Shown here piece after piece: positions 53,329-61,704 of a DNA stretch of 64,000 nt; the stretch's first letter is position 1; every line of letters starts with the position of its first letter. Where the stretch lies: positions 310,001-374,000 of the forward strand of contig JAIXUN010000003.1 of NCBI GenBank assembly GCA_027483535.1, given 5' to 3'. The translations under genes and the position numbers were made by a program. The DNA is from a bacterium. GTDB taxonomy: Bacteria; Armatimonadota; Fimbriimonadia; Fimbriimonadales; Fimbriimonadaceae. Under the pieces are notes generated by a model that was given only the letters and a program-made list of their open reading frames with translations, was not told where the DNA came from and did no database searches.

Positions 53329-53413
53329 GGCCGAATGGCGAAATTGGTAGACGCGCTGGATTTAGGTTCCAGTGTCGAGAGACATTAGGGTTCGAGTCCC
53401 TATTCGGCCACCA
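53329..53413 (+). tRNA. tRNA-Leu (anticodon UAG)
   Basis: GGCCGAA starts the acceptor stem and TTCGGCC closes it, with discriminator A and encoded CCA (53411-53413). The D arm has TTGGTAGACGCG. The anticodon stem CTGGA/TCCAG encloses TTTAGGT, giving TAG. A long variable arm follows, as in class II tRNAs. The defence-type operon begins 105 bases downstream. Confidence 0.95.
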
Positions 53414-53517
53414 TCCTTCCTGAATCCCACTTTAAGGGATCATCTTGCAGCAAATTTGCGTAAATACCATCGCTCGGCGGATGTAGACTTAAACGCGCAG
53501 CGCAGGGCATTTTAGTA

Positions 53518-58981: not shown

Positions 58982-61704
58982 AAACTTGGAGCGATCCGAC
59001 GCGGGCGGTGAACGCCATTTCCAACCGCCTCAGCCTGCGTCGCCCGCAACGGGACTCTTTGGAAATCTTGTCTCGGCTTGGCGAGATTCTGCCTTTGGAA
59101 AAGGGTCAAGACCTGAAAGAGTGTTTGGAGATCGTGAAATCCGAGTTTCCTTCGGTAGAGGAGTTCGAACGCGATTTCCCGTCTCTCTGCTTTACGCTGG
59201 CAACGGGCGTTGGCAAGACGCGTTTGATGGGGGCGTTTATTGCCTATCTGCGGGAAGTTCACCAGCTTCGGCACTTCTTTGTGCTTGCTCCAAACCTTAC
59301 GATCTACAACAAATTGGTAGCGGAGTTTAGGGAGCCGAATCATCCCAAGTACGTGCTACGGGGTCTCCCTGAGTTTGCGACCAACCCGCCGGAGGTGATT
59401 ACCGGAGACGATTACGACACGGGAAAGACCCTCTTCCGCAATCTGGACGAAGGCGTTCATATCAACGTTTTCAACATCAGCAAGATCAACTCTGAAGTGC
59501 GGGGCGGAGCTTCTCCGCGGATTCGCCGGCTGAGTGAATACATCGGCACCAGCTACTTCGACTACCTCTCCAGTCTGGACGACCTAGTGCTGATCATGGA
59601 TGAGAGTCACCGCTACCGTGCCTCTGCGGGTGCCAAAGCCATTAATGAGCTGAAGCCTGTTTTGGGTTTGGAATTGACGGCAACGCCGAAAGTTACTGGG
59701 GCGAACGGTGCTGCGTTTAAGAACGTGATCTACAGCTACCCGCTTTCTTCGGCAATGGACGACGGGTTTGTAAAAGAGCCGGCGGTTGTGACCAAGGAGA
59801 ACTTTCGCCCCCAGGATTACGACGCAGCGACTTTGGAACTGGTAAAGCTGGAAGATGGCGTTCGCGTTCACGAACATACCAAGGTGGAGTTAGAGACGTT
59901 CGCTCTTAACTCGGGCAAACCCCTGGTGAGGCCGTTCATGTTGGTGGTAGCGCAAGACACGACCCATGCCGATGAACTTGAGGCACTCATTAAGAGCGAT
60001 CGGTTCTTTGAAGGTCGGTATGCCGATAAGGTCATCACCGTTCATAGCAACCAAACCGGAGAGCTGAAAGACGACGCGGTCGAGCGGCTGTTGGTGGTGG
60101 AGAAAGCCGATAGCGAACGTGCGCCGGAGATTGTTATTCACGTGAACAAGTTAGGCGAAGGGTGGGACGTGAGCAACCTTTACACCATTGTGCCTTTGCG
60201 GCGCTTTGTGGCGGATGTTTTGACCGAGCAAACGCTGGGACGAGGTCTACGACTGCCTTACGGTCGCCGGACTGGGAACGACGCCGTGGACACCCTGCAC
60301 ATTGTTGCGCACGACAAGTTTCAGGCGATTATCGACGAAGCGCGAAACCCGAACTCGATCATTAAGAAAGGCGTGGTGATTGGACGGGACATTCCGATTG
60401 AGAAAAAGGTGGTGGTGACGGTGCCGCCGGCAATTACTCCCAAGCTCGCCGAACCGGGCGCCGCCCCTACGCAGCGCAAGATGGTGTTTGAAACCGAAGA
60501 CGATCGGCGGATTGCTCAGGTAACGGTCGAGACGCTGAAACAGTTCGAGTACCTCCCGCGCTCTGCAGACCTCAAGAACCCTGAAGTTAAGGCGCGCATT
60601 GTTGCCGAGGTGAAGAAAGGGCTAACTTATACCGCCCTTGCCGAGACCCCTGTTGCTCAAGCTTCTCTTGAGGGAACGACACCCGAACCGCAAGATGCGG
60701 CGACAGCCATAGATTTGGATTCGCAGGTGGGGCGGGTGGTCGAGAAGACTGTTGACGACTTTGTCGACCTGATGATCGACATTCCGCGCATTGTCCTTCA
60801 GCCCAAGGGCGAGACGATGATTCGTTTTGCTGACTTTAACCTAGACGTTTCCGCGATCAACTATCAGCCCGTTTCCAGCAATCTGCTTATTGAGTCTTTG
60901 CCAACGGGGCGCAGGTGGAAGCTGGATGGGGGCGAGTCGATCAATCTTGAGGATCGGCTGGAGAACTACCTTGTGCGCGGGTTGATTGATAAGTCAGATA
61001 TTGACTACGGAAGCCACTCCGATCTTTTGTACAAGCTGGCAGGGCAAGTTGTTGGTCGCCTGCAATCTTATCTTTCGGATGAGGACCAGGTTCTCAAAGT
61101 CTTGCTTCATCATCAGCGGGCTCTTACAGAATTTGTTTACGCGCAAATGCAGCGCCATCGGTTTGTGGCTCCGGTTGAGTATGAGGTTCGGATTGCCAAG
61201 GGCTTCGAGACGCTTCGGTCTAATGCGTTTGACGCTCCTGCCACGGAGTCATCACGCGACTATCGGAATCCTGTAGAGGAACGCCTTTTGATTAGGGGGA
61301 TGTCCTTTAAAGGCTTTGAGAAGTGCTTGTATCCGGTGCAGAAGTTCCAATCTGATGCGGAGAGACGGCTTGCAGTGGTGCTTGAAAACGATGATCCGGT
61401 CTTGAAATGGCTCAAGCCTGCCCCAGGGCAGTTTCGGATTCATCTTGCCAGCGGTGATTACGAGCCGGATTTTGTCGTGGAGACTCTTAGTGAGAAATTG
61501 ATCATTGAGCCGAAGCGTAGCGATCTGGTAAACGATCCTGCGGTGCTTGAGAAGTCGGATGCGGCGGTTCGATGGTGCAAGAATGCAACCAATCATGAGA
61601 TTGATCACGGCGGCAAACCCTGGCGGTATCTGCTGGTTCCTGATAACGCGATCAACAGTTCGGTGACGGTTGCCGGCTTAGCGGCGACTTACACAAAAGT
61701 ATAG
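58978..61704 (+). CDS. Type III-like Res helicase-nuclease
   Basis: A 908-residue protein. The helicase has Walker A ATGVGKT (about 75-81), Walker B MDESHR (about 208), LTATPK, and motif VI GRGLRLPYGRR. The C-terminus holds a PD-(D/E)xK nuclease (PDFVVETLSEKLIIEPKR, about 830-848) with a complete Asp-Glu-Lys set. This is the ordinary Res architecture: ATP-driven motion on DNA and cutting when the Mod subunit meets unmethylated sites. It belongs to a group often annotated as BPTD_3080-type, as I recall. It is the last gene of the operon. Confidence 0.9.
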   Translation: MKTWSDPTRAVNAISNRLSLRRPQRDSLEILSRLGEILPLEKGQDLKECLEIVKSEFPSVEEFERDFPSLCFTLATGVGKTRLMGAFIAYLREVHQLRHFFVLAPNLTIYNKLVAEFREPNHPKYVLRGLPEFATNPPEVITGDDYDTGKTLFRNLDEGVHINVFNISKINSEVRGGASPRIRRLSEYIGTSYFDYLSSLDDLVLIMDESHRYRASAGAKAINELKPVLGLELTATPKVTGANGAAFKNVIYSYPLSSAMDDGFVKEPAVVTKENFRPQDYDAATLELVKLEDGVRVHEHTKVELETFALNSGKPLVRPFMLVVAQDTTHADELEALIKSDRFFEGRYADKVITVHSNQTGELKDDAVERLLVVEKADSERAPEIVIHVNKLGEGWDVSNLYTIVPLRRFVADVLTEQTLGRGLRLPYGRRTGNDAVDTLHIVAHDKFQAIIDEARNPNSIIKKGVVIGRDIPIEKKVVVTVPPAITPKLAEPGAAPTQRKMVFETEDDRRIAQVTVETLKQFEYLPRSADLKNPEVKARIVAEVKKGLTYTALAETPVAQASLEGTTPEPQDAATAIDLDSQVGRVVEKTVDDFVDLMIDIPRIVLQPKGETMIRFADFNLDVSAINYQPVSSNLLIESLPTGRRWKLDGGESINLEDRLENYLVRGLIDKSDIDYGSHSDLLYKLAGQVVGRLQSYLSDEDQVLKVLLHHQRALTEFVYAQMQRHRFVAPVEYEVRIAKGFETLRSNAFDAPATESSRDYRNPVEERLLIRGMSFKGFEKCLYPVQKFQSDAERRLAVVLENDDPVLKWLKPAPGQFRIHLASGDYEPDFVVETLSEKLIIEPKRSDLVNDPAVLEKSDAAVRWCKNATNHEIDHGGKPWRYLLVPDNAINSSVTVAGLAATYTKV

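Follow-up and report, generated by a model that had tools for sequence, protein, structure and literature searches.

The locus studied here occupies positions 53329-61704 of the window, by which we mean the whole stretch of 64,000 nucleotides that was analysed, and all of its features lie on the plus strand. A tRNA-Leu(TAG) gene (53329-53413) stands at its 5' end, followed at a distance of 104 bp by the gene for a 952-aa SNF2-family helicase/translocase with SNF2-rel_dom and Helicase_C domains (53518-56376). Behind this first core gene lies a gap of 140 bp (56377-56516), in which no promoter, terminator or RNA structure was found above chance and which forms the 5' edge of a variable slot. In the window, the slot holds the gene of a 247-aa protein with two transmembrane (TM) helices (56517-57260), which we regard as the cargo of this locus. 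The second core gene, mod (57257-58981), starts with TTG and encodes a 574-aa type III beta-class amino-methyltransferase; the third, res (58978-61704), encodes a 908-aa type III restriction subunit with an SF2 motor and a C-terminal PD-ExK nuclease. Coordinates and order of the four genes were as given in the first-pass annotation, as was the coupling of the last three by 4-base overlaps, TTGA (57257-57260) between the two-TM gene and mod and ATGA (58978-58981) between mod and res.

The proposed type III-like pair was borne out by profile searches and by motifs. Mod matches the PADLOC profile MTase_III PDLC03636 at 702 bits as well as N6_N4_Mtase, and Res matches REase_III PDLC03648 at 762 bits; a beta-class Mod with DPPY and FxGxG motifs thus stands next to a Res that combines an SF2 motor with a PD-(D/E)xK nuclease. 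Motif conservation was assessed in sets of 51 SNF2, 29 Mod and 27 Res sequences. DPPY and FxGSG (FxGxG) are conserved in the Mod set, the Walker A, DExH and PD...ExK catalytic residues of Res are present in its 27 relatives, and the motor residues of SNF2 are near-invariant among its 51. With catalytic motifs intact and key residues invariant or almost invariant, SNF2, Mod and Res are all expected to be active, as far as sequence allows this to be predicted.

The designation of the first gene product as an SNF2/DrmD-like helicase also held, with a qualification. Its profile match is to DrmD-type helicases (E 1e-207), and similarity to BrxHI, restricted to the helicase domain, comes second; the best profile, DrmD_b, scores 692 bits, which is under its cut-off of 950 bits, and no nuclease domain was detected in the 952-aa protein. 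This ranking of profiles is what a divergent relative of DISARM or BREX would show, but we consider such an origin very improbable: the partners of the helicase are a type III Mod and Res, and neither drmA, drmB and drmC nor pglZ and brxC were present among the operon and adjacent genes scanned. DISARM shares with the window a DrmD-like SNF2 helicase and a DNA methylase, but it has DrmA, DrmB and DrmC where the window has the Res nuclease-helicase. BREX was likewise rejected, PglX also being absent from the genes scanned. The Hma system of PADLOC has an SNF2-type helicase (HmaA) plus a methylase and is known to host embedded genes; however, HmaB is a cytosine-C5 methylase, whereas the methylase of the window is a type III amino-methyltransferase and its Res a type III REase, and neither HmaB nor HmaC was among the matches listed. 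The first-pass statement that the composition is neither DISARM nor standard type III was right; the operon is more than a type III system of two genes.

Does the SNF2 helicase belong with Mod and Res? Relatives of SNF2 were drawn from plasmids, 291 genomes of the phylum, a genome-contig collection and E. coli. Mod lies downstream of SNF2 in 21 of 21 assessable loci of the genome-contig collection (from a single-query scan) and in 17 of 20 assessable loci of the phylum, the remaining loci of both sets being cut by contig ends; three loci of the phylum have SNF2 without Mod or Res nearby. In the reverse search from Res, SNF2 was found upstream in all seven plasmid lineages whose Res is at least 40% identical, and eight of the Res matches in the phylum have SNF2 on the same contig, one lacks it within 3 kb, and the rest lie at contig ends. 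The association of the helicase with Mod and Res is thus recurrent, and it spans several phyla. Furthermore, the same SNF2 family joins three PADLOC type III subfamilies, 03636/03648 (the type of the window), 03634/03647 and 03646/03654, and the SNF2 tree clusters by subfamily with several switches between them. On plasmids and in E. coli, SNF2 is often preceded by a small HTH gene with the annotation MAD1-like or HTH (L125 8808-9008 and L032 7817-8044, among others); this gene is a possible regulator and is absent from the window.

A core of this composition has precedent. Murray et al. 2021 (PMC8259958) described Eco86II and BspHIV as type III systems with an additional helicase-like ATPase, free of nuclease motifs and encoded 5' of mod, and reported this helicase-associated subgroup, in which the helicase has no assigned role, in more than 500 genomes. 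The window shares with Eco86II and BspHIV the order helicase-mod-res and a helicase that has no nuclease motif and is not homologous to Res, and here too the extra SF2 helicase-like gene 5' of mod is consistently co-localised; the likeness is one of anatomy and gene order, and the methylated base in the published systems is m4C. SNF2-Mod-Res is therefore best filed in this subgroup. The suggestion that the operon may be a distinct defence system does not hold for its core, which is not a new system, because a helicase upstream of mod in type III loci was published in 2021 (PMC8259958). The window differs from Eco86II and BspHIV in the TM cargo gene between helicase and mod, and the text of PMC8259958 contains no description of genes at this position in other loci.

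The gene content of this position was compared among 47 loci with SNF2, Mod and Res all present, most gene calls outside annotated records being our own ORF calls. Cargo, defined as extra genes of at least 100 aa in the SNF2-Mod interval, the Mod-Res interval or both, is present in 32 of the 47 and missing from 14, with one ambiguous case; the loci without cargo indicate that it is dispensable. At least 15 unrelated kinds of occupants were found. They include IetAS, SIR2 with HerA, Schlafen-AlbA_2, AAA ATPases with partner genes, XRE-IrrE, RhuM (matching PDC-S05), DinD-like (matching PDC-S13), PIN with DUF433, macro, DUF3800, GmrSD_N, KilA-N, YhcG nuclease, Abi, AIPR and several other two-TM proteins. 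Many of them are defence, toxin or embedded-candidate families, and IetAS is an experimentally tested antiphage system; another part of the cargo, the two-TM protein of the window included, matches no known defence family. Cargo genes run in the same direction as the core genes, with short gaps or overlaps. Comparison of the loci shows the gene position after SNF2 to be an exchangeable slot, filled with unrelated, mostly defence-like genes.

Two observations from these loci may be added. The interval between SNF2 and Mod in E. coli FORC_043 contains a whole IetAS system (L127 11780-15157), and near-identical SNF2 genes occur in about 72 E. coli genomes. Membrane proteins are encoded in the slots of L036 (4480-5187), L042 (3249-3797), L043 (12892-13518), L048 (12898-13728) and L050 (3664-4470); most of them carry a pair of TM helices at the N-terminus and lack a clear family match, and some are weakly alike.

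The two-TM protein of the window had been described at first pass as a membrane protein with a winged helix and as one of four parts of a system. Its two hydrophobic helices are evident from the sequence (about residues 33-57 and 75-92). A winged helix at the C-terminus is plausible but was not demonstrated: the best Pfam match, EarA, has an E value of 0.045, below the cut-off, and single-sequence structure models of the whole protein and of its C-terminal part reached pLDDT values of 60 and 65, too poor for a fold search. Searches anchored on the two-TM protein, which covered 290 further genomes of the phylum as well as plasmids, viral contigs, PDB and PHROGs, yielded no relative. Hence, of the two co-occurrences on which the four-gene proposal had been staked, that of SNF2 with Mod and Res recurs elsewhere and that of the two-TM protein does not in the collections searched. 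The GC content of its gene is 45%, compared to 53-54% for the neighbours, which agrees with a possible separate origin.

The four genes might nevertheless be a single, integrated and new defence system with the two-TM protein as an essential subunit, e.g., one that tethers the restriction complex to the membrane at the site of phage DNA entry. The two-TM, mod and res genes, overlapping by 4 bases, are probably translationally coupled, and several other loci have two-TM proteins at the same position, as this explanation would have it. However, none of those proteins is detectably similar to the one in the window, many loci have no membrane protein at all, and the nearest system (SNF2 66% and Res 76% identical) carries other genes: its slot holds an HTH/DUF433-PIN pair, and RhuM separates its Mod from its Res. 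Together with the lack of relatives in the collections searched, this makes an integrated system improbable. Since no relative was found and unrelated genes take the same position elsewhere, the two-TM protein does not appear to be part of a conserved four-gene system; by all indications from the comparison it is not a core component but the cargo of its own locus, unrecognised and new. Its most likely role would be that of a membrane-bound second-line defence, as a sensor or a growth-stopping effector.

How cargo is exchanged can be read from closely related loci. Among the loci of a Bacteroidales clade, 18 pairs share SNF2 proteins that are 93-97% identical and, where both are complete, Res proteins that are 86-93% identical. 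Against this background, identity in the middle (specificity) part of Mod drops to 16-43% in 17 of the 18 pairs, the exception being L045/L047 with 87%. Where both loci of a pair have slot cargo, the best cargo match is only 10-30% identical, i.e., essentially unrelated, in 15 of 16 pairs; the exception is L036/L057 with 96%. In L045/L047, the specificity part of Mod is kept and Res is 93% identical, and the slot cargo is unrelated by the best-pair measure, a pattern from which it follows that cargo can change independently of Mod specificity.

In DNA alignments of the loci, homology ends at the SNF2 stop codon, to within a few or a few tens of bases; where cargo differs, it restarts close to the start of mod. 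Furthermore, three loci contain duplicated ends of core genes: the 3' end of SNF2 is repeated in front of the second cargo gene in L036 (60 nt, 95%) and in L045 (41 nt, 98%), and a copy of the mod 5' end lies inside the slot of L074 (74 nt, 95%). Such duplications are what recombination between the ends of core genes would be expected to leave as scars. In the slot of the window itself, no recombination scar was detected.

The same data could be explained by a slot that is merely a tolerated insertion point, at which passengers gather in a mobile locus without a functional tie to restriction. The exchange of the Mod specificity domain argues for frequent recombination there in any case, and some loci have no cargo. 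Yet many occupants come from defence, toxin or embedded-candidate families, with IetAS among them, and they share the direction of the core genes with short gaps or overlaps, which is why we hold mere tolerance to be unlikely, if slightly less so than an integrated four-gene system. In the reading that we prefer, with a probability of about 0.7, the helicase-associated type III restriction-modification system is a stable chassis, its cargo bay is exchangeable, and the two-TM protein is its cargo in the window.

The tRNA gene, which the first-pass annotation had linked to the operon, does adjoin it at this locus; as a general feature the linkage fails. Among about 50 related loci searched, only one other has a tRNA gene within 3 kb upstream. 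E. coli stands apart: in A26 (L126 8455-11820), a related SNF2-type III operon lies 389 bp after a tRNA-Leu gene, and near-identical SNF2 genes occur in about 144 E. coli genomes. The congeners checked have the same tRNA-Leu(TAG) without the operon downstream. Near the operon, no second tRNA 3' end was found as a signature of integration, the only stretch being one in common with tRNA-Arg, and a search of the congeners around tRNA-Leu and around the M24 peptidase gene showed the operon to be absent and gave no clean empty site. The tRNA-Leu(TAG) is likely a landing site and not a component of the operon. In most congeners, relatives of the gene at 50736-51263 adjoin this tRNA-Leu(TAG) as well, but with the relative strand reversed compared to the window: the neighbourhood is conserved, with a local rearrangement.

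Other genes in the surroundings deserve mention. A Septu type I pair of a PtuA-like ATPase and a PtuB-like HNH protein lies 1.3 kb beyond Res, with an M24 peptidase gene in between (63002-64000 of the window, continuing in L091 3002-5123), which makes for a small defence island. In L091 (5138-12209), three tandem genes for paralog-like proteins of about 760-825 aa, two of which are clearly alike, precede an alanyl-tRNA synthetase gene. Upstream of the tRNA gene, a HipA-like kinase with a Couple_hipA domain is encoded on the minus strand (49214-50371), with a GC content below that of its neighbours. A 426-aa reverse transcriptase with a YVDD motif (11231-12511, plus strand), whose best PADLOC matches are generic RT and RT_UG17, could be a defence RT.

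In type III systems, the recognition site of the Mod2Res complex is short and asymmetric; the complex methylates one of its strands and, after sliding driven by ATP, cleaves DNA without the modification between inverted sites. In our model, Mod would likewise recognise and methylate a short asymmetric site and, together with Res, cut unmethylated invading DNA, as is expected from the family. SNF2 may act as an ATP-driven motor on double-stranded DNA that assists restriction, e.g., by clearing proteins or remodelling DNA. Cassettes in the SNF2-mod interval, and at times in that between mod and res, would be swapped through recombination within core-gene ends; the exchange itself is shown by the comparison of loci, and the route is suggested by breakpoints and scars. 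The cargo, in turn, may come into play when restriction has failed, as an effector or sensor of the second line, and the two-TM protein would do so at the membrane. The analogy here is with PrrC, which is carried in a type I restriction locus (PMC12707154). PrrC or DarTG2 in type I loci and the embedded candidates (PDC, HEC) are also second-line effectors inside a restriction operon; in contrast, window-type loci have a type III system plus SNF2 as host and many alternative cassettes, with visible scars of their exchange.

The model may be taken one step further. SNF2-type III loci might be a general cargo platform, in which cassettes of effectors or of whole defence systems are swapped independently of Mod specificity via homologous SNF2 and mod ends, and in which the motor or the restriction complex licenses or triggers the cargo. 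We put this forward tentatively, the odds being somewhat against it. If true, the two-TM protein would be the first representative of a new family of membrane effectors, and the slot would be a place in which to find new defences.

In sum, the new part of the present findings is the exchangeable cargo bay in helicase-type III loci, for which priority is uncertain; no description of it was found in the literature searched, which covers embedded defences in part. The usual view of type III restriction systems is that of two-gene units. If a cassette bay for defences of the second line belongs to their helicase-bearing branch, the slots in hundreds of genomes would be a ready list of candidate antiphage genes, several of them without a recognisable domain. 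The loci would then also allow one to follow, as in a natural experiment, the combination and exchange of primary restriction and back-up immunity, and would point to a testable role for the unexplained SNF2 protein.
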